A stretch of 28,096 bases of DNA from a virus. The stretch spans positions 1-28,096 of IMG/VR virus record IMGVR_UViG_3300030060_004231. One strand, written 5' to 3'. The notes beneath the pieces are model-generated. The model saw only the letters and a list, made by a program, of their open reading frames with translations. It was not told the origin of the DNA and searched no databases. Positions within the stretch are counted from its first letter, which is position 1. Each line of letters opens with the position of its first letter. A program made the position numbers and the translations under genes. Shown one piece after another: positions 1,304-28,096 of this stretch.

Positions 1304-1305
1304 AT

Positions 1306-3726: not shown

Positions 3727-3740
3727 CAATTATTAATTAT

Positions 3741-3765
3741 TATTATATTATATTATGGCAAAAAA
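3741..3765 (+). repeat. Translation-start copy 1 of a shared 25-base sequence
   Basis: Twenty-five bases made of TTATA-type repeats, the ATG and the next two codons (ATGGCAAAAAA) are identical to bases 6544-6568, at the start of another gene. The copy sits exactly over the start codon, so it may be a common initiation region or the trace of a duplication. Confidence 0.8.
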
Positions 3766-4960
3766 GAAAAAAGAAACTGTAGCTGAGGAGGCTGCTAAAG
3801 AAAACGTAACAAAAGTTGATTTTAGTAAAAAACAAGAAGTTGAAGAAACTAATGTTACTAAAGTAGATTTAACAAAACCCCCAACACCAAAAACAGAAGA
3901 AAAAAATGAAACCACAGAAGAAGTTAAAGAAGATAACACTGACGACAACAGAGTGGTTGAGCTCGTTGAAGATGCCGACACCACAGAAAAACAAGAAGAA
4001 GTACAACCGGAAGCTGAAACACAAGAAGAGCAGCCAGCCTTAGAAGAAGTTACTGAAGAAGAAGTTCAAGAGCAAACAGAAGAACTAACTGAAGAGGTTG
4101 TTGAAGCTGTTGAAGAGTCTGAAAAAACAGGTGTTCCTTTACCTGAAAATTTACAAAAAGTTGTAGATTTTATGCAAGATACTGGTGGTACTCTAGAAGA
4201 TTATGTAAGACTTAATCAAGATTATTCTAGTTATGATGATATGACAGTTTTGAGAGAGTATTACAAGCAAACAAAAAAACATCTTACAGACGATGAAATT
4301 ACTTTTTTAATTGATGATTCATTTTCATTTGATGAAGAAGTAGATGAAGAAAGAGAAATAAGAAAAAAGAAAATAGCGTTAAAAGAGCAAGTTGCCAACG
4401 CTAAAAGCCACTTAGACGGGCAAAAGTCTAAATACTATGAAGAAGTTAAAGCTGGCTCAAAATTAACATCTGAGCAGAAAAAAGCTATGGACTTTTTTAA
4501 TAGATACAACAAAGAGTCAGAAGAAAACAAAAAAATAGCGGACAAACAAACTAATACTTTTAAATTAAAAACTCAACAAGTTTTTAACGATAAATTCAAA
4601 GGTTTTGAATATAACGTCGGAGATAAAAAATATCGGTTTAACGTGAAAAACGCTGGTGAGATAAAAGAAACTCAAAGCGACATTAATAATTTTGTCAAGA
4701 AGTTCTTGAATGAAAATAATGAAATGTCAGATGCTAAAGGTTATCATAAATCTTTATTTACAGCCATGAATCCCGACGCTATTGCTAGGCATTTTTACGA
4801 GCAAGGTAAAGCTGACGCAATGAAAGATAGTGTTGCAAAAGCTAAAAATGTAAGCATGGACCCTAGACAATCATTTTCAAATGAAAACTTTAGTGGTACA
4901 AAAGTAAGAGTGCTTAACGATGATTCTCCTAACTTTAAGTTTAAAATTAAAAACAAATAA
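3755..4960 (+). CDS. Putative head scaffolding protein (401 aa, acidic)
   Basis: Probably the internal scaffold that shapes the prohead and leaves during DNA packaging. This rests on its place between portal and major capsid protein and on its composition. It starts with a short Lys cluster (MAKKKKET), followed by about 130 residues of strongly acidic, Thr/Val/Glu-rich, low-complexity sequence that is probably disordered. A helical part follows (about residues 130-260, with GGTLEDYVRLNQDYSSYDDM and the charged REIRKKKIALKEQVANAKS), and then a more ordered basic C-terminal part ending in KFKIKNK. A basic C-terminus is typical of scaffolds that bind coat protein. No protease motif was seen. The first 25 bases of its start region are shared with the gene at 6558. 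The sequence alone gives no catalytic function; it could instead be a decoration or internal head protein. Confidence 0.62.
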   Translation: MAKKKKETVAEEAAKENVTKVDFSKKQEVEETNVTKVDLTKPPTPKTEEKNETTEEVKEDNTDDNRVVELVEDADTTEKQEEVQPEAETQEEQPALEEVTEEEVQEQTEELTEEVVEAVEESEKTGVPLPENLQKVVDFMQDTGGTLEDYVRLNQDYSSYDDMTVLREYYKQTKKHLTDDEITFLIDDSFSFDEEVDEEREIRKKKIALKEQVANAKSHLDGQKSKYYEEVKAGSKLTSEQKKAMDFFNRYNKESEENKKIADKQTNTFKLKTQQVFNDKFKGFEYNVGDKKYRFNVKNAGEIKETQSDINNFVKKFLNENNEMSDAKGYHKSLFTAMNPDAIARHFYEQGKADAMKDSVAKAKNVSMDPRQSFSNENFSGTKVRVLNDDSPNFKFKIKNK

Positions 4961-4981
4961 TAAATTTAAAAATTAAAAATT

Positions 4982-6487
4982 ATGGCAATTACTGGAGGTG
5001 GTAGTTTAAACAGTGTACCTGCTGCAAAGCAACAAACATTAGTTTCAAACTATCTAGATTTCACGGGTACTACGGATAAAACGTGGGCTCAACAATATTT
5101 ACCAGACCTAATGGAGCAAGAAGCTGAAGTTTTCGGACCGAGAACTATTTCAGGTTTCTTATCTCAAGTTGGGGCTGAAGAAGCGATGACTGCTGACCAA
5201 GTTGTTTGGTCTGAGCAAGGTCGTTTACATTTATCATACACTGGTCACGTAGAATCTCAAAGTTCTGGTGAAGATAGTGCTGGTCAAATTACAATTGAAG
5301 GACATATCGATGCAAACGCAACTTATACTGCAGCATCTCATGGTATTAGAGTTAACGATACAGTTATCGTATCTAACGCTGGTGGTACTGTAAAAGGTTT
5401 AGTAACTACAGTTGCTTCTGATGTAATTGATGTAGCTCCTTACAATTCAGGTGCTACTGGTTTTTCATCTGCAATGAATATTAGTACATCTAACAAAACT
5501 ACTATATTAGTTTATGGTTCTGAATACACTAAAGGTACTAGATACTTTGCTGGTGGTTCTGTAACTACTCAACAAGATGATAGAGGTGCTAACGAACCTT
5601 CTTTCCAAACTTTTACTAACAAGCCAATTATCATGAAAGATTACTACGAAGTATCAGGTTCTGATACTGCTAGAATTGGTTGGGTAGAAGTTACTTCTGA
5701 AGGTGGTGCTTCTGGGTACTTATGGTACTTAAAAGCTGAAGCTGACACAAGAGCTCGTTTCACTGATTACTTAGAAATGGCTATGCTTGAAGGTGAGTTA
5801 AACGATGCTAACTCTGTTGCTGATTCATCTAATGTAATGTACAACTCTGCTCAGTCTACTGGTGGTAGTGGTACTGAAGGTTTATTCGCTGCTATTGAAA
5901 GCAGAGGTAATATGTCTTCTGGTATTACTGGTGGTGGTTCTGACTTAGATGAGTTTGACGCTATATTAGCTGAGTTTGATTCTCAAGGAGCTATTGAAGA
6001 AAACATGATGTTCTTAAACAGATCTACTGCTTTAGCTATAGATGACATGTTAGCTTCTATGAATTCTTATGGAGGTGGTGGTACTTCTTACGGAGTATTT
6101 AACAACTCAGAAGACATGGCATTAAATTTAGGTTTCTCTGGTTTCAGAAGAGGTTCTTATGACTTCTATAAGTCTGACTTTAGATACTTAAATGACAAAG
6201 CTACTAGAGGTGGTATTAATGCAGCTGATAGTGTTAACGCTATTAGAGGTGTCTTTATCCCAGCTGGTACGTCTACTGTTTATGACCAACAATTAGGTAA
6301 AAACCTAAAGAGACCATTCTTACATGTTCGTTACAGAGCTTCACAAACGGATAACAGAAGAATGAAGACTTGGGTTACTGGTTCTGTTGGAGCTGCTACA
6401 TCTGCTTTAGATGCAATGCAAATCCACATGCTATCAGAAAGATGTTTAGTTACACAAGGTGCTAACAACTTTATGTTATTAAACTAA
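4982..6487 (+). CDS. Major capsid protein (501 aa)
   Basis: Main shell protein, expected to have an HK97-type fold. Support is the position after portal and scaffold, the length of about 500 aa, and a sequence pattern of the crAss-like/marine podovirus coat family: an N-terminal arm (residues 1-60), an E-rich helix with FTDYLEMAMLEGELND near 260, and C-terminal segments SYDFYKSDFRYLNDKATRGG and FLHVRYRASQTDNRRMKTWV. Residues about 101-176 look like an inserted small beta domain (GIRVNDTVIVSNAGGTVKGL). Codon choice differs from neighbouring genes: more GGT, GCT, TCT, ACT and C-ending TTC, TAC and AAC, as in highly expressed genes. A strong intrinsic terminator follows directly after the stop. 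The start is preceded by an A/T leader without Shine-Dalgarno. Proteolytic maturation is not evident. Confidence 0.86.
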   Translation: MAITGGGSLNSVPAAKQQTLVSNYLDFTGTTDKTWAQQYLPDLMEQEAEVFGPRTISGFLSQVGAEEAMTADQVVWSEQGRLHLSYTGHVESQSSGEDSAGQITIEGHIDANATYTAASHGIRVNDTVIVSNAGGTVKGLVTTVASDVIDVAPYNSGATGFSSAMNISTSNKTTILVYGSEYTKGTRYFAGGSVTTQQDDRGANEPSFQTFTNKPIIMKDYYEVSGSDTARIGWVEVTSEGGASGYLWYLKAEADTRARFTDYLEMAMLEGELNDANSVADSSNVMYNSAQSTGGSGTEGLFAAIESRGNMSSGITGGGSDLDEFDAILAEFDSQGAIEENMMFLNRSTALAIDDMLASMNSYGGGGTSYGVFNNSEDMALNLGFSGFRRGSYDFYKSDFRYLNDKATRGGINAADSVNAIRGVFIPAGTSTVYDQQLGKNLKRPFLHVRYRASQTDNRRMKTWVTGSVGAATSALDAMQIHMLSERCLVTQGANNFMLLN

Positions 6488-15070: not shown

Positions 15071-16417
15071 ATGCCACATAGTAATTTACATATAACAACG
15101 ACAACTAGTAATCCAAGTAATCTATATTCTATAACTGTTATAGAAGATGCTAATATTAATGATCCTACAAACAGTGTTATTCAATATACACCTACCGGTG
15201 TGCCTTTTTATACTATGAAAGTAATACCAAATAATTATGCAATTGAAGATTTAGTTATATCAGGTAATTTTAAAATAGACGGAATAACTAGTAGTTGGTC
15301 TTGGAACGCTGATCTAGGCAATGGACAGGGTAGTGGTGGTTGTTATCCGCCTGATCCTCCTTATTACAATGGAGGCGGCGCGCCAAATACTATAATAAAA
15401 AACGCTATTTCACATCCTTATGTTTTAAATGGCACAGTATGCTGGCCATCACCTTTTATAGGCAATGGTACTTATAGGTTTCAAGGTCCTTATGTTTTTG
15501 ACAACTCTACTTATTGTGATGGTGCTTTTTTAAGCTCGTCAGACGTAGTTACTTGGCGTAAAATAATATTAATTGATGTTTATGAAATGGACTCTGGTAT
15601 GTTTGCAAATGGCGGTTTATCACCTGCAATTGAAGAAGACGAAACATTTTGGGCAACAGCAAACGCGTTTTATAACCCATTTGCAAGTGTAATAAACGAT
15701 GGTTTTCCAGCACATTTACACGCTTTTGTTTTTCCAGAATATCACCCAACAAACCCTTTAACATCAAACATGCATCTTGATTTAGACTTTGATTATATAC
15801 CAGGATATGCTGGTTGCACAGATCCAAGCTCATTAACTTATGATCCATTGGCTACAACATCTAATCCTAACGCTTGTACTTATGGCCCAGCGCCTCTTGC
15901 CTGGGCGCCTTTAAATATTACTAGTGATATTTCACCGGCAAATCATACTTTGTACACGGTAGATGCTTTAAATGGTGGTACGCTTAATGCTCCTATTCAA
16001 ATTCTTGTTTTAAATAATTTTGATGTTAGTATACCTACACCAACAGGTGGTGTACCGCCGTACCAAGACATGGAAATTAATAATTTAGCAGATATGGTAA
16101 CTACATCTGGATCGCCGGCAGGTTCTGGATCTTTGCCTTCACAAATTATGATAGTTGACGATGCTAACTCTACAATAGATCCGTTAGATCCAACTCACTA
16201 TCTAGATATGCACACCACTTTGCTATCAATGCAAGGAACTAATATTGCTAGTTTTGGAACTTACAGCGTTGGATCAGTTATTTTGTCAGTTCCGGGAGAT
16301 CCTGTTTCTGCTAATTACTCCGTGCAAGATATTACAATAGAAGTTATAGTTGAAGATGATAACCTTGATACTGTTACTAGCTCTGTTTCAGCTGACTTAG
16401 CTAGTCAATACAATTAG
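15071..16417 (+). CDS. Putative tail fibre/appendage protein with one GC-DP repeat (448 aa)
   Basis: Specific function not recognised. It is Thr/Ser/Asn/Pro-rich and predicted to be almost all beta, with very few Lys residues, as expected for an extracellular virion appendage. The first 240 residues contain several Cys and aromatic clusters (GGCYPPDPPYYNGGGAPN, and TVCWPSPFIGNGTYRF near residue 120). Residues 248-271 are a GC-DP repeat (GCTDPSSLTYDPLA...CTY) of the type at the end of the preceding protein. The remainder is Val/Asp/Ser-rich, possibly an immunoglobulin- or cadherin-like fold. The gene starts 10 bases after the tail-protein stop and ends 2 bases before the next ATG. The shared repeat suggests both products sit on the virion surface and contact the host or each other. 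It could also be a head fibre. Confidence 0.6.
   Translation: MPHSNLHITTTTSNPSNLYSITVIEDANINDPTNSVIQYTPTGVPFYTMKVIPNNYAIEDLVISGNFKIDGITSSWSWNADLGNGQGSGGCYPPDPPYYNGGGAPNTIIKNAISHPYVLNGTVCWPSPFIGNGTYRFQGPYVFDNSTYCDGAFLSSSDVVTWRKIILIDVYEMDSGMFANGGLSPAIEEDETFWATANAFYNPFASVINDGFPAHLHAFVFPEYHPTNPLTSNMHLDLDFDYIPGYAGCTDPSSLTYDPLATTSNPNACTYGPAPLAWAPLNITSDISPANHTLYTVDALNGGTLNAPIQILVLNNFDVSIPTPTGGVPPYQDMEINNLADMVTTSGSPAGSGSLPSQIMIVDDANSTIDPLDPTHYLDMHTTLLSMQGTNIASFGTYSVGSVILSVPGDPVSANYSVQDITIEVIVEDDNLDTVTSSVSADLASQYN
15812..15883 (+). repeat. Third GC-DP repeat
   Basis: Encodes GCTDPSSLTYDPLATTSNPN followed by ACTY. It has the same Cys-bounded pattern as the two copies at 14833-14904 and 14950-15015 but lies in a separate protein and is not flanked by proline runs. 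Confidence 0.9.
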
Positions 16418-16419
16418 AT

Positions 16420-17910
16420 ATGAAAATAATAAATAGTTTTACAATAGACAATAGTTCAATGCCAAGTGGAGTTCTTGTTAACAGATCTTACACTGTTGTT
16501 GGTGATGAAGGCGCTAAGTTTGGTTTAATTGTGCAAAATGATTCTGGTCTTTATTATAACTTTCCTGAAAATACAATAGTTAACAGAAGTGCTGGAGTTT
16601 TTGAGCCAGCTCCTAGTTTTTCAGCAACACCAGCGTCGTTAGTTGATAGACAAATAGATTCAACAGGCTTGTATTCTGGTGTTATTAAATTTCCGTCAAT
16701 ATCTGATGATGATTATTACGTTATAACAGTTTTTACGCACGAAGACACTGAGTTTTCTTTAGAAAATTACAATAATAAAAATGTTATTGTTTTTGACAAA
16801 ATATATAAATATCTTGACACTACTGTAACTTTTTCACTATTACATAGTAACGCTGCTGTTGTAGAACCAAGTAATTATACAGTAACTGGCGTAAGCACGC
16901 AGGTAAACGATAGTGTGTATAGCACAAAATTTTCGCTTGACTGGGACGTAACGTTAAGTTCAAGTTTTTGTACAGCGCTAAGACAACCTTTACCATCTGA
17001 CTTTGAAACTAGTTTAACAAAAACAACTGTTACCGCTGGTTCTTCATCTACAGAGCTTGAATTAAATAGTGTAAAAGGACTTTCTGTTGGTATGAAAGCT
17101 GCTGCAACAGGTATCGCAACTGGTACTACAATAACAAAAGTTATAAAAGGTTATAAAAACTCAAATAAATCTTCAGCGTTAAACACTGTGTATGATGTAC
17201 CAATAAAAATTAACGACGAAGGTGATAGCATTGATTTAAGTGAAGCAGGTACTGTAATATTGAGCGCTGCCTCTACTTTTGTTGTAGATAGAAACGTAGT
17301 GTTTACAAGTTCTGGAAGTCAAGGTTCTGAAATTGCTAATGAAACAGTTTTTAATGCTACAAATTTAAAAGTAAAATTAGACGACGTTGTAACCACAACT
17401 ACATCTGCAGTTCCAGACGCTGTAATACACTGTACAAGTGCAAACGGTATAAAGCAGCAAGCTCAATACACTGTAAACGGTGCTACAAGTAGTTTAAACA
17501 CAGTTGTTGTTGACGAGGCTGTTACAGATCTTGCTGTTGGCCAAAGATTACAAGCTATATCATCTGGAACGCTTGTTGGTATACCAGAAGTTATAGCAGT
17601 CAACACAACAACAAAAACTATAACGCTTTCTACCAAGCAGACATTAGCTGACGGTATAACACTTACTTTTTCAAATAGCATTGTAAAAGGCATAGGTATA
17701 AAAAACGCTACAACAGATCCTTATGTTGTGAGTATAAGTACAAATGATGTTACTGTAAACGCTAATCAAGACATTGAAAGTGGTGCTACTGTTACTTTTG
17801 TAGGTAGTAGTAGATCTTTAAAAATAACGGGTGATATTGAAGTTTTAAAATTTGGAAAAGATAATATAACCTTAACATTAAACTTAGACAACTTTTTAAA
17901 AGTAGGATAA
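16420..17910 (+). CDS. Beta-rich virion structural protein with repeated beta modules (496 aa)
   Basis: Probable structural protein of the tail or head surface. Exact role not recognised. Residues 1-130 form an N-terminal beta domain (SGVLVNRSYTVVGDEGAKFG, and later DDDYYVITVFTHEDTEFS) similar to N-terminal parts of appendage proteins in marine phages. Two related modules follow. In residues about 203-300 the core is SVGMKAAATGIATGTTITKV, and in residues about 351-418 it is AVGQRLQAISSGTLVGIPEV followed by TKTITLSTKQ. The same pattern occurs inside the adaptor at 8104. The composition is Thr/Ser/Val-rich with only two Cys residues and no coiled coil. The gene follows the 448-aa gene by 2 bases and is followed by the next ATG after 1 base (TAACATG), indicating translational coupling along an appendage operon. 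Confidence 0.62.
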   Translation: MKIINSFTIDNSSMPSGVLVNRSYTVVGDEGAKFGLIVQNDSGLYYNFPENTIVNRSAGVFEPAPSFSATPASLVDRQIDSTGLYSGVIKFPSISDDDYYVITVFTHEDTEFSLENYNNKNVIVFDKIYKYLDTTVTFSLLHSNAAVVEPSNYTVTGVSTQVNDSVYSTKFSLDWDVTLSSSFCTALRQPLPSDFETSLTKTTVTAGSSSTELELNSVKGLSVGMKAAATGIATGTTITKVIKGYKNSNKSSALNTVYDVPIKINDEGDSIDLSEAGTVILSAASTFVVDRNVVFTSSGSQGSEIANETVFNATNLKVKLDDVVTTTTSAVPDAVIHCTSANGIKQQAQYTVNGATSSLNTVVVDEAVTDLAVGQRLQAISSGTLVGIPEVIAVNTTTKTITLSTKQTLADGITLTFSNSIVKGIGIKNATTDPYVVSISTNDVTVNANQDIESGATVTFVGSSRSLKITGDIEVLKFGKDNITLTLNLDNFLKVG

Positions 17911-17911
17911 C

Positions 17912-18292
17912 ATGGAAATAACATTAAAATTTGGCGAACCACTAAACATGTCTCTTCAAGTAGGCGATACAATATGGTATACTACACCTTCTACTGTTGG
18001 TGGTTATGATACTGCTACTAAAGACTCTTTAATTAAACTTGGCAACGTAGAGTTTATAAGTAATCAGTACCAAGCTTACGAAATAAAAGTTAGTCAACCT
18101 CACGACCCAAACGATCCTAATGTAGTAGCGCCTGTATTAACTAATCAAAGTTTTGTTATGTTTTCAAAAAACAATAAAGTTAATTTAGGTAAAGTAAAAG
18201 GTTATTATGCTGAGGTAAATTTAAAAAATAATTCTACTAAAAAAGCAGAACTATTTGCTGTTAGTTCTGAAATATCCGAAAGTAGTAAATAA
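17912..18292 (+). CDS. Small virion-associated protein of unknown role (126 aa)
   Basis: Small beta-rich protein. It opens with MEITLKFGEPLNMSLQVGDT and a Tyr/Trp-containing strand (IWYTTPSTVGGYD). The middle carries LIKLGNVEFI and the end is KGYYAEVNLKNNSTKKAELF, a pattern I recall from small structural proteins next to fibre genes in marine phages, where the function is not known. A single globular barrel-like domain is plausible. The ATG lies 1 base after the preceding stop, so it is probably translated by re-initiation and made in proportion to the 496-aa protein. It might be an accessory subunit or chaperone of that protein. No signal peptide, membrane segment or catalytic motif is visible. 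Confidence 0.6.
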   Translation: MEITLKFGEPLNMSLQVGDTIWYTTPSTVGGYDTATKDSLIKLGNVEFISNQYQAYEIKVSQPHDPNDPNVVAPVLTNQSFVMFSKNNKVNLGKVKGYYAEVNLKNNSTKKAELFAVSSEISESSK

Positions 18293-18333
18293 CGTATAAA
18301 AACTGTAATTATAAATAAATAAACAATAAAAAC

Positions 18334-19035
18334 ATGGCAGTAGGTTTGAAAAAAAATATAAATAAAGAAGAAAAAAGTTCTCCAGCTAAATTTTTAGGTG
18401 ATTTGTTTGGTGGTAGAAGCTTAAAAGCTAAATTAAAAAAAGCTGAAACTGAATATAGAAAACAAATGCAAGAGTACTCAGACTTTGCGTTTAAAAATCC
18501 TTATGAAGAAAATGTATACGCTGGTATGGAAAATACTTTTGAGGACTTAACAGTTAATCAACAACAAGCAGAGTTTCAAAGACAACAAGCGCAGCAAAGC
18601 CAAGCTAATATACTACAGTCTTTAACTGCTGGTGGGCAATTTAACGCTGGAAATATACAAGCACTAGCTAACCAAGGTGCTAAAGCAGCTCAACAAGCAT
18701 CTGCTTCTATAGGGCAACAAGAAGCTGCTAATAGAGCATCTCAAGCGAGAGAAGCTTCAAGATTACAAACTTTAGAACGTCAAGGTAGAGAGGCTGGTCA
18801 GAGAGGTGCTGCTATGGTTCAAGGTATGGAGTTTGATAGACAAGCTACAATGCTTGGCATGTCAATGGAAATGGTTGGTAACGCACAAGACGCTATTGCA
18901 GCAAACAAAGCTATGTGGGGTAACATAATTGGTAGTGTAGTTGGTGCTGCTGCTGGTGGATTCACAAGCGGTGGTATGAGTAACTTAGGCGTAGGTAAAT
19001 CATTTTTTGGTAAAGAACTACCTAGTTCAGGATAA
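18334..19035 (+). CDS. Probable ejection / internal virion protein, Gln-Ala rich (233 aa)
   Basis: Likely the small member of a set of internal virion proteins that leave the head with the DNA and help it cross the cell envelope (compare T7 gp14 and P22 gp7). It has a basic N-terminus, a conserved-looking core NPYEENVYAGMENTFEDLTV (residues 54-73) and a Gln/Ala-rich helical tract (about residues 74-180). It ends in a Gly/Ala hydrophobic segment (MWGNIIGSVVGAAAGGFTSG, about residues 197-216) that could insert in a membrane. Position before two larger virion proteins supports the role. The leader (41 bases) is A-rich with no Shine-Dalgarno. The assignment rests on composition, architecture and order, not on a catalytic motif. 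Confidence 0.65.
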   Translation: MAVGLKKNINKEEKSSPAKFLGDLFGGRSLKAKLKKAETEYRKQMQEYSDFAFKNPYEENVYAGMENTFEDLTVNQQQAEFQRQQAQQSQANILQSLTAGGQFNAGNIQALANQGAKAAQQASASIGQQEAANRASQAREASRLQTLERQGREAGQRGAAMVQGMEFDRQATMLGMSMEMVGNAQDAIAANKAMWGNIIGSVVGAAAGGFTSGGMSNLGVGKSFFGKELPSSG

Positions 19036-19053
19036 ACATAAAAAAAATAAACT

Positions 19054-20379
19054 ATGGGAGCAGATCAAAATTTAATAAGAGCAGCAGGTCGTTTAAAAGA
19101 GCAAGCTTGGGACTATAGCGGTATACTAAAAGCTATTCAAGCAATAGGTGTTTATACAACTCAAAAAAGAGCTATTGCAAACGAAATAAGTTCTTATGGT
19201 AGCAAGCTTACAAATATAAAAGCTGTGCCAGACGAGATTTTTCAAGGTCAATACGGTGATAAAAATATGGATTTTATGGCCTCAGCAAAGCAAGAATGGA
19301 GTAATGCAACTAATATAATAAAAGACCCGTTTAATCTACCTAGTTCTAAAAAGTATAAAGACGCTGTAAGAACAATTAACACTATAAAATCAGTTCTTGA
19401 AAACAACAAGGCTGGTTTAGTTAAATGGGAAGAAATACAGAGAGGCGTAGATGATAAATATGCTAAAATGTCAAAAGGCGCAAGTTTTGAAGTTGAAAAT
19501 AGAATACTTGATATTGTTAATAATTCAGTTGACGCAAATATAAATGATAATTTAGTTTTTACAAACGAAGGTTTGATGTATTTTGATAATAATACTCAAG
19601 AGTTAATTAGCATGGCTGATTTAACTAATGGTTATAAAGAAAATTATATAGACGATGCGCTAAGTAAAAGAATAAAAGGTATTGTAGAAAAATATACTAA
19701 GAAAACCAGCGAAGATGATGAGTTTCAAGAATCAGATTTTTCTGCTGAAATGTTAGGTTTATTTAACGAGTTAAAAACAAATAAAAACTCAGGTTTTGAT
19801 AGATTAAGAAGTTTAGCTTATGACTATCAGTTTCCTTTAATAAGTGGAGTGCCTGCTAGTTATGTTCAAGATAACAGTGAAGACCTATTAAAAGTAACAA
19901 ATGACGAGTGGATAGCTGCTAATCCTGATTACACAAATGACGAACTTGAAACTATGAAAGAACAAACGTTAGCTAGTCTTTATGGGCCAAACAACGTGAA
20001 AGATTTAGAAGTTAACATGCTAAAGTGGTTTGTTGAATCTACAAAAGCTAAATTTGTCGCTGCAAAGCCAAAAACAACTGGTAGTAATGCAAATAGCGTT
20101 TTGCTACCTATTTCACGTAGACTTACAATTGAAGACGAGCCAGGTCTTGTTAATAAAATGAAAGGTAATGAAAGTGAATCTAGAACATTTAATATTCAAG
20201 ATATTACTTTTGATTACAAAGATGGTAAATGGAGAAGTAATTATTATAAAAATTTAGGAATGACGCCTGTAGAAGGTAATGACGCAGACGCTAAAGATGG
20301 TAGTGGTAGAGCCTTGTACAATCAATTAGGCCAACGTAAAGCTTTTGAATTTTTATTATTACCAACTTATAACAAATAA
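19054..20379 (+). CDS. Putative internal virion protein (441 aa)
   Basis: Not recognised in detail. The sequence is largely helical and charged, with no signal peptide and no clear membrane segment. It begins MGADQNLIRAAGRLKEQAWD; residues 30-140 are helix-rich, residues 140-250 contain Asp/Asn-rich turns, and the C-terminal third is more beta-like (ESRTFNIQDITFDYKDGKWR). No lytic transglycosylase, amidase or protease motif was found. It sits between the Gln/Ala-rich protein and the giant polyvalent protein, 18 and 8 bases from its neighbours. It therefore occupies the middle place of a three-gene ejection module, like T7 gp15 or P22 gp20. By length it is smaller than T7 gp15. The role is inferred only from gene order. 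Confidence 0.58.
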   Translation: MGADQNLIRAAGRLKEQAWDYSGILKAIQAIGVYTTQKRAIANEISSYGSKLTNIKAVPDEIFQGQYGDKNMDFMASAKQEWSNATNIIKDPFNLPSSKKYKDAVRTINTIKSVLENNKAGLVKWEEIQRGVDDKYAKMSKGASFEVENRILDIVNNSVDANINDNLVFTNEGLMYFDNNTQELISMADLTNGYKENYIDDALSKRIKGIVEKYTKKTSEDDEFQESDFSAEMLGLFNELKTNKNSGFDRLRSLAYDYQFPLISGVPASYVQDNSEDLLKVTNDEWIAANPDYTNDELETMKEQTLASLYGPNNVKDLEVNMLKWFVESTKAKFVAAKPKTTGSNANSVLLPISRRLTIEDEPGLVNKMKGNESESRTFNIQDITFDYKDGKWRSNYYKNLGMTPVEGNDADAKDGSGRALYNQLGQRKAFEFLLLPTYNK

Positions 20380-20387
20380 AATTTAAT

Positions 20388-23300
20388 ATGCCTCAATACA
20401 AAATTGGTGAAAACGTATTTGATGAAAAAACTATAATTATTGGTGCTCAAGAAGAAAGCTTGAGTGTTGATGAGTATGTTAAAAAATATGACATTGAAGT
20501 TGATGGTGTTCCAACTTTAGAGTCACAAATAACACGTAGTCCAAAAACACCTAAAGAGGCTACTCAAAGTGCTTTTGTTATTAAAAACAGTATAGATAAA
20601 GATAATCCTGCCGTAAAAAAAGTTTTAGCTGAAAAATATTTTGATTTAGAAAATATGGAAAGGCCACGCAGCGAAACAAAGAGAGAGGGAAAGCCTTTTC
20701 CTATACCTGGTATTAGTGCAATTCCATATTTTAAAAGTCTTGAATATGATTTTAAAAATGATTACGAAACTGATTTAAAAAATCATTTTGCTACTAAAGT
20801 TCCTTTTGCTGGGCCAGACAAATACGAAGCTTATAATAGATATAGAGAAACTGGAGAGTTTGACTTAAGTTTAGTTAGTAGTGCAGAAATTATAGCCGCT
20901 GTAAAAGAAGAGCAAAAGAGGCAAATGCAATTGTATATTGCTGATATTGACAATGAAGCTATAAGAAAAGTAGCTGCTGCAAATCTTATGGACGGTGTGT
21001 TTGACGATATGGACGCTACAGCTGTTAATCCTAAAACAGGTAATTTATGGGTTGATGAGTATACTACAGCTTTAACAGAAGATAGAGAAACTTTATATCC
21101 AGAAGATTTTGGTGTTTTTGATTTTGATGAAAAAAAGAAAAAAGCTTTAGTTAGTGGTACTTTAAATCAGGTTGCTCCGCTTAGTGGAATTTATGGAGAT
21201 GCTTTTTTTAATGTTGCTTCAGGCGCAAAAGAAAGACGTGCTGCTCAAACACAAATATATAAAAATCAGGGAAAAGCTAATATTGTTTTAAAAAATTATC
21301 TTGATTTTAAAATAAACGAAATACTTACGCTTAAAGCAAATTACCAAGAAGCAACTAATGATTTTAACAATGTTGTAACTACTGAATATATACCTGAAGT
21401 AGAAAAATTAGTTGGTGAAATTTCAGACTTAAATTTAAAACCAACATCTTCAGAGCAAGATAAATCAAGAGGCTTAGCTTTGTATACTCAATATGAATCT
21501 GTATTAAACGAGTATAGAACTGCTTTAAATAATCAAAAACTAGCCGCAGCTTCAATAAATTTAACTTCAGAAAATTTCTTAGAAACAACTGCTAAGTTAG
21601 ATGACACTCAGTTTGTTGCTCAAGCTTTTATGTTAGATTACTCAATGGATGGTGGTATGTCACTTTCTATGGAAAAAGGTTTAGTTGATATGATTGGTCT
21701 TGGTGTTAAAGCTCTTGATTATTTAGAAGAAATACCAGAATTCTTGATTAACTATACAACTAACTTTGCTAGACTTAAAGAAGATATAGACATAGAGTTT
21801 TTTGGAAATATACATAAAAACAAAGTTATAAGTTATCAAGAAAGTCTACAGCAGTATACAGAAGCTGCAAGGCCTTTAAATATAAGATGGCAAGACGTAA
21901 AGTTTTCTGGACCAGGCGCTAATTTTGGTGAAGCTGCAAATCAACTATTTGCTAATAATGTATTTAGTATTGGTTCTGCTCTTACTTATGGTGGTGTTAT
22001 AAAGCTTGGTGGTAAAGCTGTTGTAGCGCCAGCAACAACATATCTTACTAGATTATTTTTTGGATTAGAAGGTGGTGCTAAACTTGCTGAGATGGAAATT
22101 GGTCAAAAAAATGCACAAAGCGCTATAGACTTTTACATGGGTGAGCTAGCAAATGCAACTACAGAAGATCAAAGACTTGCTATTAATAAACAAATAGATT
22201 TAGCTTTAAAACAATTAAACTACACAGAGTTTCAAAAAGCTTTTAGCGCTATTACATATGGTGGTATTGCTGCTTATATGGAAAAGTTTGGTACAATGAG
22301 TTATGTTCAAAAACTAGCTTTATTAAGCAAAAGCGATATAACCGGTATTACTATAGGTAGCGCTTTAAGAGGTGCTGGTGGATTTGGCTACAACACAGGT
22401 ATAGAATATCTTGAAGAAGCATTTACACAAGTTGGTCATAACTTAGTTGATTATGGTGTGCTTGGTGAAAACAAGTCTTTAATAGAGGGTATTGACGCAG
22501 AGTTTAATATGAATGTGTTGTTTTCAACTATGGCAATACAAGGTCCTTCTATCGCTGGTAATGTATACAACGCTGTAAGAAGCGAAATATCAACAGCACA
22601 AGAAATTAAAGAAAATCAAAAAAGATCTGCAGCATTTGCTGAAATAGCAAAACAAATAGAAGTTTTAAGAGGAAAAAGAACTAGAACTGTAGATGGTAGA
22701 ATAGTAGAAGGTGAGAAAACAGATATGGAGCTTTATTTAGAAAGTGAAGCAATGAGATTATTGCGAGAAGCTCAAGTTCAAGACGCTGAACTTTTTGCCG
22801 ATGTCTCTAATATGTCTAACAAAGATATTTTTGCGTTATTTGAAGCTCAAAGAAAAAAACGTGAAAAAAAAGAAAGAGCTATGAGAATAGGATCTGCACA
22901 GTCAGGTCAAAAATATAATAAAACTGCTGCTAATAAAATAAAAGCAATACAACAAGAAATAGACGATATTGATCAAGAAATAAGTGAGTTAAGAAGTAAG
23001 ACAAAAAAAGATCAAAAACAACAAGTCGACAATGTTATTAAGCAGTTAGAGGAAGTTGGTAAACAAACAAAAGCAAAAGCAGAAGATTATTTTTTCTTTG
23101 GTAAGTTTTACGAAAGTGTTTCTATGACTTTAGGATTAGGAGGTAGTGTAATAAAAGCAAAAACCGCTCAAGAAGCATTAGAAATACTAAAAGAAAAAGG
23201 AGCTACAGAAGAGCAATTACTGCAATATGAGTTAGGTTTTAGAAAAAGAGAATTTGGTGGTAGAGAGGCTAATGCAAGTTTTTTTGGAAACGACATTATA

Positions 23301-26300
23301 GCTGTTGAAGAAAACGTAATCAATAATATAGTTTTATCTTCTACTACTTATGAAAAGTCTGCTATGGCTTTTTCAGTGTTTCACGAGCTTATGCACTTAA
23401 ACGACTCAAAGGTAAAGCTTTTTGAAGATATTGAAATGCGCGGTATAAATGACGCTGTAATAACAGATGTAGAAAACTTAATAAAAGAAATACAGTCTTC
23501 TAATCCAGAAGTATATAACAGAATATTAAATAGATTAAATAATTATAAAGCTAAAGGAAGTGACGTTTATTTAAGAGAATTAACGCCTTTATTAGCAGAG
23601 CTTCAAGATGCTGGATTAATAAATGAAGGAAGAAGCTTAAGCGTATCATTAAAGCTTTTACTTAACTCAGCTATTAACAAATATTTTGGTGGTAAACAAC
23701 CGATGTATTTTAAGTTTAATTCTGCTCAAGATATAAATGCTTATGTTGCTAGTTTTAGACAGGGTGTAAGAGATAATAATTTAATAGTTGCTGGTACAAC
23801 TCCTGAGGGTGATCCAATATTTTCTGAAGCTACACAAAGAACACCTGAGAAGTTAATAAGACAAATTAAAAAACTTAGTAAACTTCCTAATTTTAAAGAC
23901 AATCCTCAGTATAGAAAAGATTACGCAGAACTACTAGCTCAATACAACGCCTTAGCTTTGACTGCTATAAAATTTGATGATAGAGTTGGTGATATACCTA
24001 GAAAAAATGTTGTGTCTGCTTTGTCTGTTTACCTACCTGGTCTTATAAAAAGATTTACACCAACTAATCCAAAAACTGGTAAAAAACGTAAGTTTTCTAC
24101 ATTTGTTACTGCAAATATCAAACCTAAAGATGACACTATATACGAACAAGCTAAAATACAAGCTATACGTGACAGTGTTAAGCTTGATGATCCAAACGTA
24201 AAAGATGTTGCCGGTGATATAAACGACACTGCAAACACACAGCAAACGTTTGTACAAAAAATAGATATGTTTGAAGATTTTAGTATTGTATCTACAAAAT
24301 CGAACGACATAAAATCTAAGATAAAAGTAAAAGAAGGTCAAACTTTTAAAGAGGTGATTGATAACAACGCTGGTCAAGTTGGTGAAATTATATTTGATAT
24401 AGCTGCTGACAAAATTATGAAAGGCGGTGCTAACTTATCTTTAGTTACAAAATATCAAGAAGGTATGCCTGTACCTGCTGAAGGCCAAAGTATACAAAGA
24501 GTTTTTAATGCTGGTGAAAACGCTAGCAAGTATATAAAAACTTTACCGCTATTAAACGTTACTAGAAAAACAGCTGATATAAATAAAATAGGTGAAAATA
24601 TAGATGTGCCAAGAGATATTTACGGTAGAGCTATTGGTATAAAAGGTTTAGTAATGGATTATTTTTACGAAGACTATGTAGATCCAAGAGCTACTAGTAC
24701 AGATCGTGCTGTTAAACGAGACGCTGAAACATCGCCAGGTGGTAGAAGTTTAGGTTTATCAACTCAAACACCTGTAAAAATATTAAAGCCAGAGTTTAGA
24801 AACCCTACACCTCAAACTATTGAAAAGTTTAAACAAGACCTAGGTATAACACCTAAAAATCAACCAAACATATACAATAGAGATATTGGTCAATTTTTGA
24901 AAAGCAACGCAAAAGCTTTGTCTATAGGCGTTTCATTATCTGGTGCCCAAAGAAAACTAGAGCAAGCAGGTGCTGCTAAAACAGATATAGCTAAAGTTAC
25001 AACTGCACAGGGTAGAGCGGCGTTTAGCGAGGCGTTTATAGAAGTTGACGGCTTAATGATAAAAAACACTCTTGAGCTAGAACAAAAAGGTATAGACAAA
25101 GTTTTAGAAGCTAGAGGTCAGGGCAAAAGTTTTGATTTAACTACTGACGCTGGAAGAGAAAATTTTTTAGAAGCAATGCCAAAACATTTATTTCCAACTA
25201 TGCCAAAAGAGTTTTGGATAAAAGATGGTATTGACGTATTTACTGCTAGTAATAAAAACTACGGCGTTAGCATGAGTGAGTTTAAAAAAGATGGCACTAG
25301 AAATCCTGATTATGATAAGGCAAAAGCCGAAGCTTATATGAAGTTTAGAGACGACGTTAGAACACTTGCTCAAAACACTGACGACAGCGTGTTTGGTAAA
25401 CCAGTTGAAATTAAAAACGAAAAAGGTAAGGTAATACAAAAAGCAAATTGGGATATTGTTAAAAATTACGGAACAATATTTGGTACTAAAATAAGTTATA
25501 GAACAAAGCTTGCAGATACAAAAAGAATAAATAAATGGAACAAAGACATAGCTTTAATACATAGAGTTATGTGGGAGCGTTTTAACACCGCAATAACAGA
25601 AGACGAAACAGGTGGAGCTGCTATCGCTATAGGAACTTATTTAAAGCTTACTGCAAACGATAAAAAATCATGGCACAGGCTTGGTGCTCAAATAGCTGGT
25701 TACTCTTTAAAAATAACAGGTGATAAAATAGAGTTTGAACACGCTATGCCTGCTACAGCTGCTTATTTATATTTAATGAATAGCATATTAGATGACCGTG
25801 TTGATTTTAAGGCTGGTTACGATCTTGTTATTAAAAACTATAAGCTAATAGTTTTAGACAAAGCTATGGATAAAAAATTAACTAAAGCAAGAACTGCTAG
25901 AGGTTATAGTTTACAAAAGCGTATGCCAGATAATTGGAGTGTTCTTGACAATAACTGGTGGGAAAGATACTTTAACGAAATAGTTTTTAATACAGACGGC
26001 GTTGGTATTGACCCTAACTCAATAGTAGCTTTAGATGGTAAAACAACTTTTGCAAAAATGTTTAATGTTAATGCCAAAGGAGCTAATAAAGCTTTATTTT
26101 CTGAGTCTACGCAGAGACAAAATTTTTCTAACGCTGCTACTCAAGCTAGAGGTTATAATAAAAATACAAAATCAAGAGGCATGAGTACTTTTGATTTTGA
26201 TGAAACGTTGATTATTGATGGTAAAAATTTTATTACAGCCACTAAAGGCAATGATGTTATAAAAATTAGTAGTGGTCAGTGGCCTATACAAGGTCCTAAG

Positions 26301-28096
26301 TTAATGGAAGAAGGTTATACTTTTGATTTTAAAGATTTTGTTAATGTAAGAGGTGGTACTGAAGGTCCTTTGTTACAAAAAATGAAAAACCAAATAAGCA
26401 AGTATGGCCCTAGCAATGTGTTTGTGTTAACAGCTCGTATGCAAGAAAGTGACACTGCAATACACGGTTGGTTAAAAACTCAAGGTATAAACATACCTAT
26501 GGAAAATATAACGGGGCTGGGTAACAGTACTGGTGAAGCAAAAGCTCTTTGGATGTTAAACAAATTTGCAGAAGGTTATAACGACATGTATTTTGTTGAT
26601 GATGCGCTACCAAATGTAAAGGCTGTTAAAAATATATTAGATCAGTTAGATATAAAGTCTAAAGTTGTACAAGCAAAAATTAATTTTAGTGAAGGTCTGA
26701 GTGGTGATTTTAACAATATACTAGAAGATCTTAGCGGTATAGACGCTAACAAAAGATTTAGCGCTGTAAAAGGTAGGAAAAGAGGTAGAGATAAAGGTAA
26801 GTTTAGATTTTTTATACCACCATCGCATGAGGATTTTGTAGGTTTATTATACAATTTTTTAGGCAAAGGTGAGCAAGGTAATAGACATAGAGACTTTTTT
26901 GAAAAATCTTTAATAAGACCTTTAAACAGAGCTTTTAGAGAATTAAATGCTGCTAAACAAGCTATAGCAAATGATTTTAAAAACTTAAAAAAACTAAATC
27001 CTGAAGTAAAAAAACGACTAAACGAAAGTATAAAAGAAACAAAAGACGATTATACTTATGCGGATGCTATAAGAGTTTATTTGTGGAATAAAGCTGGTTA
27101 TGATATACCTGGTTTAAGCAAGTCTGATCAAGATTTATTAGTCGCTATAGTTAGAAACGACCAAGCAATGAGATCTTTTGCAGAAGCTGTTAATACTATA
27201 TCAAGGCAAAAAAATTATGTTAAGCCAACTGAAGAGTGGGAAATTGGTGATATAAGAACTGACTTAATACAAGCTACTGACGGAGTTAATAGAGAGCCAT
27301 TTTTTGTAGATTTCAATAATAATGTCAATGAAATATTTAGTAAAGAAAACTTAAACAAGATAGAAGCTATTTACGGTGAAAACGTAAGAGAAGCTTTAGA
27401 AGATATGATCTTTAGAATTAGTACTGGAACTAGAAGACCAACAGGTACTAATAAACAAGTAAATAGATTTTTAGATTATTTACAAGCTTCTATTGGTGGT
27501 GTAATGTTTTTTAACATGAGGTCGTCTATATTACAGCAATTATCTATTGTTAACTTTTTAAATTTTGAAGACAACAATATATTTGCCGCGGCTAAAGCAT
27601 TTGCAAATCAAAAACAATATTGGAAAGACTGGAGCATGATATTTAACTCTGACATGTTAAAGCAAAGACGTGGCGGTTTAACAATGGATGTTAATTACCA
27701 AGATATAGCTAGTTACGCTGCTCAATCAAAACAACCTATTAGAGCTATAATAAAAAGATTATTAGCTTTAGGATTTACGCCAACTCAAATATCTGATAGT
27801 ATGGCTATTGCTTCTGGTGGTGCAACTTTCTACAGAAATAGAGTTAATAAATATTTAAGTGAAGGGCTAAGTCAAAAAGAAGCAGAGACAAAAGCTTTTG
27901 AAGATTTTCAAATAGTAGCAGAGTCTACGCAGCAATCAGCAAGACCTGATATGACTTCGTCTCAACAAAACTCTGTACTAGGTTGGTTTATATTAGGTTT
28001 CCAAAACGTTACGTCACAGTACAATAGAATAATTAAAAAATCTGGTAGTGATCTTATAAATAGAAGAATATCTCCACCTTACACAGATCAAAGAAC
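20388..28096 (+). CDS. Giant polyvalent virion protein, >2569 aa (3' truncated by window edge)
   Basis: The frame runs from the ATG at 20388 to the window end with no stop: 2569 full codons, already about 290 kDa. I read it codon by codon. Order of parts: a charged N-terminal region (1-500); hydrophobic Gly/Ala-rich stretches (about 520-565, 620-720) around IEYLEEAFTQVGHNL; a helical coiled coil (about 738-898); a zincin-type motif HELMH (999-1003); a long region of unknown function with FEHAMPATAAYLYLM (1783-1797); a full HAD-phosphatase motif set (1932-2080); a basic linker GRKRGRDKGKF; and a helical C-terminal region including MRSSILQQLSIVNFLNFED and SVLGWFILGFQNVTSQYN, resembling domains repeatedly found at the end of phage polyvalent proteins. 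Such proteins are thought to be packaged and delivered with the DNA. Which activities work is unknown. The start lies 8 bases after the preceding stop. Confidence 0.82.
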   Translation, partial: MPQYKIGENVFDEKTIIIGAQEESLSVDEYVKKYDIEVDGVPTLESQITRSPKTPKEATQSAFVIKNSIDKDNPAVKKVLAEKYFDLENMERPRSETKREGKPFPIPGISAIPYFKSLEYDFKNDYETDLKNHFATKVPFAGPDKYEAYNRYRETGEFDLSLVSSAEIIAAVKEEQKRQMQLYIADIDNEAIRKVAAANLMDGVFDDMDATAVNPKTGNLWVDEYTTALTEDRETLYPEDFGVFDFDEKKKKALVSGTLNQVAPLSGIYGDAFFNVASGAKERRAAQTQIYKNQGKANIVLKNYLDFKINEILTLKANYQEATNDFNNVVTTEYIPEVEKLVGEISDLNLKPTSSEQDKSRGLALYTQYESVLNEYRTALNNQKLAAASINLTSENFLETTAKLDDTQFVAQAFMLDYSMDGGMSLSMEKGLVDMIGLGVKALDYLEEIPEFLINYTTNFARLKEDIDIEFFGNIHKNKVISYQESLQQYTEAARPLNIRWQDVKFSGPGANFGEAANQLFANNVFSIGSALTYGGVIKLGGKAVVAPATTYLTRLFFGLEGGAKLAEMEIGQKNAQSAIDFYMGELANATTEDQRLAINKQIDLALKQLNYTEFQKAFSAITYGGIAAYMEKFGTMSYVQKLALLSKSDITGITIGSALRGAGGFGYNTGIEYLEEAFTQVGHNLVDYGVLGENKSLIEGIDAEFNMNVLFSTMAIQGPSIAGNVYNAVRSEISTAQEIKENQKRSAAFAEIAKQIEVLRGKRTRTVDGRIVEGEKTDMELYLESEAMRLLREAQVQDAELFADVSNMSNKDIFALFEAQRKKREKKERAMRIGSAQSGQKYNKTAANKIKAIQQEIDDIDQEISELRSKTKKDQKQQVDNVIKQLEEVGKQTKAKAEDYFFFGKFYESVSMTLGLGGSVIKAKTAQEALEILKEKGATEEQLLQYELGFRKREFGGREANASFFGNDIIAVEENVINNIVLSSTTYEKSAMAFSVFHELMHLNDSKVKLFEDIEMRGINDAVITDVENLIKEIQSSNPEVYNRILNRLNNYKAKGSDVYLRELTPLLAELQDAGLINEGRSLSVSLKLLLNSAINKYFGGKQPMYFKFNSAQDINAYVASFRQGVRDNNLIVAGTTPEGDPIFSEATQRTPEKLIRQIKKLSKLPNFKDNPQYRKDYAELLAQYNALALTAIKFDDRVGDIPRKNVVSALSVYLPGLIKRFTPTNPKTGKKRKFSTFVTANIKPKDDTIYEQAKIQAIRDSVKLDDPNVKDVAGDINDTANTQQTFVQKIDMFEDFSIVSTKSNDIKSKIKVKEGQTFKEVIDNNAGQVGEIIFDIAADKIMKGGANLSLVTKYQEGMPVPAEGQSIQRVFNAGENASKYIKTLPLLNVTRKTADINKIGENIDVPRDIYGRAIGIKGLVMDYFYEDYVDPRATSTDRAVKRDAETSPGGRSLGLSTQTPVKILKPEFRNPTPQTIEKFKQDLGITPKNQPNIYNRDIGQFLKSNAKALSIGVSLSGAQRKLEQAGAAKTDIAKVTTAQGRAAFSEAFIEVDGLMIKNTLELEQKGIDKVLEARGQGKSFDLTTDAGRENFLEAMPKHLFPTMPKEFWIKDGIDVFTASNKNYGVSMSEFKKDGTRNPDYDKAKAEAYMKFRDDVRTLAQNTDDSVFGKPVEIKNEKGKVIQKANWDIVKNYGTIFGTKISYRTKLADTKRINKWNKDIALIHRVMWERFNTAITEDETGGAAIAIGTYLKLTANDKKSWHRLGAQIAGYSLKITGDKIEFEHAMPATAAYLYLMNSILDDRVDFKAGYDLVIKNYKLIVLDKAMDKKLTKARTARGYSLQKRMPDNWSVLDNNWWERYFNEIVFNTDGVGIDPNSIVALDGKTTFAKMFNVNAKGANKALFSESTQRQNFSNAATQARGYNKNTKSRGMSTFDFDETLIIDGKNFITATKGNDVIKISSGQWPIQGPKLMEEGYTFDFKDFVNVRGGTEGPLLQKMKNQISKYGPSNVFVLTARMQESDTAIHGWLKTQGINIPMENITGLGNSTGEAKALWMLNKFAEGYNDMYFVDDALPNVKAVKNILDQLDIKSKVVQAKINFSEGLSGDFNNILEDLSGIDANKRFSAVKGRKRGRDKGKFRFFIPPSHEDFVGLLYNFLGKGEQGNRHRDFFEKSLIRPLNRAFRELNAAKQAIANDFKNLKKLNPEVKKRLNESIKETKDDYTYADAIRVYLWNKAGYDIPGLSKSDQDLLVAIVRNDQAMRSFAEAVNTISRQKNYVKPTEEWEIGDIRTDLIQATDGVNREPFFVDFNNNVNEIFSKENLNKIEAIYGENVREALEDMIFRISTGTRRPTGTNKQVNRFLDYLQASIGGVMFFNMRSSILQQLSIVNFLNFEDNNIFAAAKAFANQKQYWKDWSMIFNSDMLKQRRGGLTMDVNYQDIASYAAQSKQPIRAIIKRLLALGFTPTQISDSMAIASGGATFYRNRVNKYLSEGLSQKEAETKAFEDFQIVAESTQQSARPDMTSSQQNSVLGWFILGFQNVTSQYNRIIKKSGSDLINRRISPPYTDQR
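23382..23396 (+). other. Zincin-type HELMH motif within the giant protein
   Basis: Codons 999-1003 read H-E-L-M-H, preceded by a hydrophobic helix (SAMAFSVF) and followed by LNDSKVKLFED. A strand with NDIIAVEENV lies about 30 residues upstream, as in phage-borne metallopeptidase domains, where a strand precedes the HExxH helix. The two His residues and Glu are the expected zinc ligands and catalytic base. The third ligand is not certain; acidic residues downstream are candidates. A five-residue motif can occur by chance, but the helical context supports it. Confidence 0.6.
26181..26640 (+). other. HAD-superfamily phosphatase-like domain within the giant protein
   Basis: All four motifs occur in order. 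Motif I is STFDFDETLI with D1936 (nucleophile) and D1938 (acid/base). Motif II is VFVLTAR with T2015. Motif III is a Lys (K2052) in GNSTGEAKALW. Motif IV is MYFVDDALPN with D2071 and D2072. Spacing suits a small HAD with a short cap. TAR-containing motif II and a DD motif IV are typical of HADs acting on nucleotides or polynucleotide 3' phosphates, but the substrate cannot be read here. Confidence 0.85.

Follow-up and report, generated by a model that had tools for sequence, protein, structure and literature searches.

The stretch of DNA studied here (the window) comprises the 28,096 bases of IMG/VR virus record IMGVR_UViG_3300030060_004231, beyond which there is no sequence. It includes a head operon that begins within the gene for TerL, a tail muzzle gene, five genes for candidate cargo or tail proteins and, at the contig end, a giant open reading frame (Table 1). 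The cultured relatives of the head operon are podoviruses of Flavobacterium, Cellulophaga, Maribacter and Tenacibaculum, and the giant protein can therefore be placed among flavobacterial podoviruses. The muzzle is of the crassvirus type, here encountered in a relative of flavobacterial podoviruses, and has homologues in cultured Maribacter, Cellulophaga and Flavobacterium phages. Two of the five genes between muzzle and giant, those encoding 126 and 233 amino acids, recur in 73 and 82 related loci, respectively.

In the related loci, the giant gene typically starts a few bases past its upstream neighbor. The last gene at the corresponding position is annotated as "structural protein" in Elemovirus, phi38:1 and phi13:2, labels that are mostly similarity-based. 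The names "tRNA methyltransferase", given to the giant of Maribacter phage Panino (PP540027, PANI_CDS0069), and "reticulocyte binding/rhoptry protein", given to MW202828 UOF82488, are probably misleading. Downstream of the giant, with a start that lies between a few and some tens of bases past its stop, an unannotated gene of about 182 or about 349 codons repeatedly follows in related contigs (L002, L004, L006, L008 and L005, L030, L035, L051).

Table 1. Features of the window and, in the last two lines, of the related contigs L013 and L017.
Feature	Position	Strand	Evidence or remark
TerL (5′ end missing), portal, 401-aa protein, virion structural protein	2..6487	+	PHROG matches, cultured homologues
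Tail muzzle protein, crassvirus type, 1,839 aa	9541..15060	+	crAss_MUZ E 6.5e-17, crAss_MUZ_C E 1e-8 (Pfam)
Five genes between muzzle and giant (448, 496, 126, 233, 441 aa)	15071..20379	+	Candidate cargo/tail proteins
Giant ORF	20388..28094	+	3′ end cut by contig end; complete homologues 2,741-2,788 aa
Gly/Ala-rich stretches (residues 505-560, 610-745)	21900..22622	+	Poor conservation; not transmembrane by hydropathy
Likely coiled coil, Lys/Glu/Gln-rich (residues 840-900)	22905..23087	+	Sequence; model residues 2-38 helical
Zincin-like metallopeptidase domain (~residues 910-1080)	23115..23627	+	Four invariant residues; AF2 model; homology to Elemovirus gp18
HELMH (H999, E1000, H1003), predicted zinc ligands and general base	23382..23396	+	Invariance in relatives
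E1064, predicted third zinc ligand	23577..23579	+	Invariant in 63 relatives
Sigma-70 region-2-like domain (residues 1151-1257)	23838..24158	+	VIA structure and sequence profiles
Conserved segment (residues ~1290-1560)	24255..25067	+	Conservation profile; no fold match
Conserved alpha/beta segment with E-x-EHA-x-P (residues ~1740-1870)	25605..25997	+	Conservation, AF2 model
HAD phosphatase domain, T4 Pnkp 3′-phosphatase-like (residues 1926-2095)	26163..26672	+	Motifs, fold, DUF2608
HAD motif I, DFDET 1936-1940 (D1936, D1938, T1940)	26193..26207	+	Invariant in 68 relatives
HAD motif II, T2015-A-R2017	26430..26438	+	T2015 column invariant in 68 relatives
HAD motif III, K2052	26541..26543	+	Invariant in 68 relatives
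HAD motif IV, D2071-D2072	26598..26603	+	Invariant in 68 relatives
All-helical C-terminal block, highly conserved, incomplete in window	26763..28094	+	Conservation; predicted helices
HAD region with nested kinase	L013 12470-13672		AAA_33 E 4e-16, zeta toxin E 2e-12
Nested insert in HAD region	L017 9617-10216		Same hairpin as kinases; no Pfam match

A continuous frame in a mosaic family

The giant frame starts with ATG, stays open for 2,569 codons and runs past the contig edge. Homologues from contigs L002-L004 are collinear with it over its whole length (54-76% identity); in four relatives, collinearity extends to most or all of the frame. In comparisons with L003 and L002, no segment has a pN/pS ratio outside the range 0.18-0.39. 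Because collinear homologues exist and pN/pS is low in all segments, a chance frame or a frameshift is excluded; the uninterrupted 7.7-kb frame reaching the window edge, which a first-pass annotation of this DNA had pointed out, is thus real and under purifying selection. Compared with its nearest complete homologues, the window copy is short by about 170-190 C-terminal residues, which suggests a whole protein of about 2,740 residues.

Scans of the whole giant against Pfam, PHROG and NCBIfam produced no match that could be relied on (those to DbpA, E 0.009, and to TIGR00096, E 0.005, were both far below cut-off), and tblastn of the whole giant against cultured phages gave no match. A profile search with the HAD domain found a relative of the giant in at least 469 IMG/VR contigs; judged by this similarity, the family is carried by hundreds of uncultured marine viruses. 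Seven relatives are found in bacterial or archaeal MAG bins, several of them Bacteroidetes, and may be mis-binned viral contigs; those in bins labelled Maricaulis and Woesearchaeota (L122, L124, L126) probably are.

We examined 94 giant proteins, 76 of which are complete and range from 2,032 to 4,311 residues. Their best conserved part is the block from the HAD domain to the C terminus. The N-terminal parts vary greatly and contain, in some relatives, GH108, glucosaminidase, SLT or LPD14 domains, the latter in 4 of 40 relatives. A search of the relatives' contigs for LPD38 gave no match, and its control gave none either. The family is mosaic, with peptidoglycan hydrolases, kinases and other segments added or swapped. 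Two Cys-rich repeats (CAAVSKSGKRCKN...CTIH type) follow the C-terminal block in the giants of L009, L012, L015 and L018, and Pfam DUF5763 matches 4 of the 17 members of set A1.

The C-terminal block, already singled out as helical and conserved-looking, is predicted to be helical throughout and is probably a packaging or scaffold part. It matches no Pfam or PHROG family, and a comparison with the cultured giants revealed no homology. Upstream of the HAD domain, the segment comprising residues 1740-1870 contains E-x-EHA-x-P followed by MP...W-x-RY and could be a further enzyme. Neither for this segment, nor for residues 1290-1560, nor for the C-terminal block was a structural match obtained with long multi-domain models, as opposed to single domains, as queries. 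Foldseek found no significant PDB match for the models of 1,054 and 869 residues, and realignment of candidates by VIA was informative. Towards the N terminus, the stretches previously described as hydrophobic Gly/Ala segments are indeed rich in both residues but do not reach transmembrane-level hydropathy, the best 19-residue Kyte-Doolittle mean being 1.18 and none exceeding 1.6. From its sequence, a coiled coil at about residues 840-900 is plausible.

The zincin-like, sigma-2-like and HAD domains

Zincins share the signature HExxH...E. When the 1,054 window residues from the zincin-like domain to the HAD domain were aligned with 63 relatives (13-81% identical to the window), H999, E1000, H1003 and E1064 were the sole invariant positions, the latter lying 61 residues past the last His of HELMH. 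As the HExxH...E pattern is invariant in all 63, the domain carries the zincin signature. The HELMH motif that the first-pass annotation had noticed could be located at residues 999-1003, and a single HExxH is present in 74 of the 76 complete relatives and two in the other 2, composition shuffles yielding 0.015 per protein. In the AF2 model (mean pLDDT 81, about 90 in the zincin region), strands and helices follow the order expected for a zincin. VIA matched the model weakly to a zincin-related chain (Z 5.2), and the zincin domain of Elemovirus gp18 is homologous to that of the giant (E 9e-12). Neither a search of PDB sequences with the zincin profile nor a Foldseek comparison of the multi-domain model with the PDB returned anything significant for this region. 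Signature and model together make it highly probable that residues ~910-1080 form a zincin peptidase.

Region 2 is the promoter-opening part of bacterial sigma factors, and residues 1151-1257 of the giant resemble it. Upon comparing this segment with known structures by VIA, nearly all of the top 50 rows were sigma factors at region 2, with SigB leading (Z 7.9). With a profile of 17 relatives, eight sigma factor sequences, mostly RpoS, ranked first among 177,635 PDB sequences (E 0.006-0.015). A motif-centred profile of 42 relatives, a set biased by its selection by motif, gave the strongest value (E 4.5e-6 to a sigma factor, followed by FliA, RpoS, RpoH and SigK). The unselected 63-sequence profile also placed two sigma factors first and reached SigB at E 0.002 with the whole domain covered, the structural search and this profile search agreeing in both the SigB chain and the region. 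A profile made without the subgroup of the window matched the window segment weakly (E 0.03) and 59 of 96 targets at E < 0.01; within the giants, sigma-profile matches lie mostly 140-340 residues after HExxH. Taking into account structure and profiles, whose scores are modest, descent of residues 1151-1257 from sigma region 2 appears likely.

A standalone sigma factor of about 250 residues is encoded in 11 of 15 long contigs of relatives (6 above the Pfam cut-off), and these phages therefore appear to work through the host RNA polymerase. In contigs L111-L121 such a protein, in some cases below the Pfam cut-off, is found besides the sigma-2-like domain of the giant. A search of the relatives' contigs for the T7 RNA polymerase family gave no match, and neither did its control. 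An origin of the sigma-2-like domain from the phage's own sigma factor was considered and found unsupported, its scores being closer to RpoS/FliA than to the standalone phage sigma.

HAD motifs I-IV, also listed in the first-pass annotation, correspond in the alignment of 68 relatives (A7) to the invariant columns D16, D18, T20, T95, K132, D151 and D152. VIA matched the domain to many HAD structures (Z 7.4-11.4), which shows the Rossmannoid HAD fold. The best match is the 3′-phosphatase of T4 Pnkp (Z 11.4, 2.5 Å over 120 residues), other HADs reaching 7.4-10, and DUF2608 is detected in the HAD domain of 14 of 15 members (E 1e-5). Among the arginines that recognize the 3′-phosphate, that of motif II alone is clearly conserved. 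The assignment rests on motifs and fold, no HAD structure having been retrieved when the HAD profile was searched against PDB sequences; a comparison of the HAD segment alone with cultured phages gave chance matches only. We assign residues 1926-2095 to the HAD phosphatases with high confidence. Of the two folds for which a structure check had been proposed earlier, the HAD fold was recovered by VIA, and the zincin fold was not retrieved by Foldseek.

Four of the 94 giants carry an inserted domain, 130-200 residues long, always at the same hairpin between HAD motifs I and II. The inserts of L013, L015 and L105 are P-loop kinases of Pnkp/zeta-like type, and profile searches of the PDB with the nested kinase matched Pnkp1 (E 3e-4), the kinase of a bacterial Pnkp (CthPnkp, E 0.002) and PezT. 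For the insert of L017, an identity as ADP-ribosyltransferase had been read by eye alone and was not retained, Pfam finding nothing. Since a kinase is set into a Pnkp-like phosphatase, a nucleic-acid end is favored as the substrate of the HAD domain, and we tentatively propose, with modest confidence, a nucleic-acid 3′ end.

Possible role in infection

The giant is quite probably a virion-cargo or polyvalent protein. The best overall explanation, which we consider fairly likely, is that it represents a giant polyvalent cargo of a short-tailed marine phage with cultured relatives that infect Flavobacteriia. The first-pass annotation had likewise read it as a polyvalent protein with protease-like and phosphatase-like domains, a claim now supported by the zincin signature, the HAD domain and the podovirus-like head/tail operon; it had missed the sigma-2-like segment, the likeness to T4 Pnkp, the crassvirus-type tail and the spread of the family.

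We infer the location of the giant in the virion, its ejection and all of its activities and targets. The giant would be packaged by means of its conserved helical C-terminal block and, when the phage infects a cell, would leave before the DNA by way of the crassvirus-type muzzle. Crassvirus cargo and the virion RNA polymerase of N4 are reasonable analogies for an ejection within the first minutes. In the cell, the zincin (H999/E1000/H1003/E1064) may cut its own chain or a host protein. The sigma-region-2-like domain might contact either the RNA polymerase of the host or early phage DNA, which would allow phage genes to be read at once; a sigma-like action of the segment on RNA polymerase is somewhat doubtful. 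The T4-Pnkp-like HAD domain would remove a phosphate, and the end of a nucleic acid or a nucleotide is its most likely source.

The sigma-2-like segment could instead be a generic helical arrangement sharing neither descent nor function with sigma factors. Its Z of 7.9 falls within the range of common helical arrangements, Pfam Sigma70_r2 (PF04542) did not reach its cut-off (best E 0.08, in one of 17 members), and key residues of sigma-70 are not conserved: the promoter-melting Trp pair is absent, the positions of Trp 433/434 being occupied by S/K/A and Q/F/L, and the beta′-contact positions Q406/E407/N409 are likewise unconserved in the giants. Such a coincidence is nevertheless unlikely, since the profiles, one of them made without motif selection, rank sigma factors first and converge independently with the structural search on one region and one SigB chain, and the reversed-sequence control of the sigma profile reached just E 0.77. 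For the HAD domain, it is the substrate that is in question. Small molecules such as nucleotides or NAD-like/cyclic-nucleotide signals, whose removal would blunt host defense signaling, are a serious possibility that falls short of probable: class B/C acid phosphatases and nucleotidases match the domain structurally at Z ~8, and polyvalent proteins with counter-signaling enzymes have been described (PMC7824862), but the T4 Pnkp 3′-phosphatase stands above the rest and three relatives carry a Pnkp/zeta-like kinase inside the domain.

At the level of the whole chain, the giant might be mainly a structural internal-core or ejection protein of the T7 gp16 or P22 gp16 type, with helices that form a channel or core, a zincin that processes virion proteins in assembly, and HAD and sigma-like parts that are remnants or structural modules. 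Its position as last gene of a structural operon, with syntenic genes annotated as structural, its mostly helical chain, the muralytic domains of some relatives and the missing contact residues of the sigma-like part are all in keeping with this. However, not one catalytic residue of HAD or zincin varies among relatives that have diverged widely, and the HAD domain has received additional enzymes; active enzymes therefore fit better than scaffolding, and we regard a mainly structural protein of this kind as quite improbable.

The reading of the giant as a polyvalent cargo can be extended further, in a form that as a whole is rather unlikely. A large group of uncultured marine phages would inject a giant in which a sigma-like domain that engages promoters lies next to a protease and a phosphatase for nucleic-acid ends; upon entry, host RNA polymerase would be redirected by the particle itself, in place of the virion RNA polymerase that crassviruses and N4 bring along, and the HAD domain would offer a docking hairpin for inserted effectors (the Pnkp-like kinase and others). 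A conserved sigma-2-like domain in a probable cargo protein, in a family of this size, makes it possible to address by a binding assay how phages without a virion RNA polymerase take over host transcription at entry, a question that concerns most uncultured lineages. The peptidase and the Pnkp-like phosphatase in one chain point to self-processing and to RNA-end or signal clean-up as possible acts of early infection.

Comparison with known systems

The giant is a protein of known kind, a polyvalent protein, whose set of zincin, sigma-2-like and HAD domains we did not find described. Like the polyvalent proteins (Iyer et al. 2017, PMC5512222), it is a single giant chain with unrelated activities, a zincin hub and mosaicism; at least two disparate domains (zincin signature, HAD, sigma-2-like) are joined in one chain, and this is encoded by a phage, as the TerL, portal, virion and muzzle genes of the window indicate. 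Polyvalent proteins with zincin peptidases have been described, and 36% of the described ones carry such a peptidase (PMC5512222); calling the combination of a protease with another enzyme an unexplored system, as was done at first, is hence too strong. LPD14 is present in four relatives, and the window copy has no Pfam LPD match. The HAD phosphatase and the sigma-2-like domain are absent from the text of that survey, which mentions neither "sigma" nor "phosphatase" (PMC5512222), and a literature search of incomplete coverage did not bring up a sigma-like domain in any giant protein that is polyvalent or ejected.

The muzzle of PhiCrAss001 acts as a gate through which cargo is ejected, and its gene is followed by others for cargo proteins that mass spectrometry detected in virions, including RNA-polymerase proteins of 155-277 kDa (PMC10172136). 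As with gp45-gp50 of that phage, the giant of the window is encoded after a homologous muzzle gene, the muzzle lying upstream of the candidate cargo genes as in a tail of crassvirus type. The crassvirus giants are RNA-polymerase-associated, whereas that of the window combines zincin, sigma-2-like and HAD domains and has neither a Pfam RNA_pol match, and hence no T7-like RNA polymerase family, nor a conserved DxDGD motif. The virion RNA polymerase of N4 is a giant ejected chain that contains a zincin-type domain and cannot be encapsidated without its C-terminal region (PMC5512222). With this protein of N4/Schitoviridae (~3,500 aa), the window giant shares the giant chain and the zincin-type domain, but not the T7-type RNA polymerase domain.

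Among the cultured giants, none of which has a clear HAD or sigma-2-like match, gp18 of Elemovirus (NC_055853, 3,694 aa, annotated as structural) occupies the same genomic position and carries the homologous zincin domain; it differs from the window giant in having no DxDxT motif and no clear HAD or sigma-2-like match, and in carrying DUF3293 instead. With the 3′-phosphatase of T4 Pnkp, its best structural match, the HAD domain has D-x-D-x-T, T/S-x-R, K and D-D in common. The window copy has no kinase, and in the relatives that have one the kinase is nested in the HAD domain, whereas that of T4 is N-terminal. Such nested insertions represent one route by which giant proteins may gain activities without breaking old ones.
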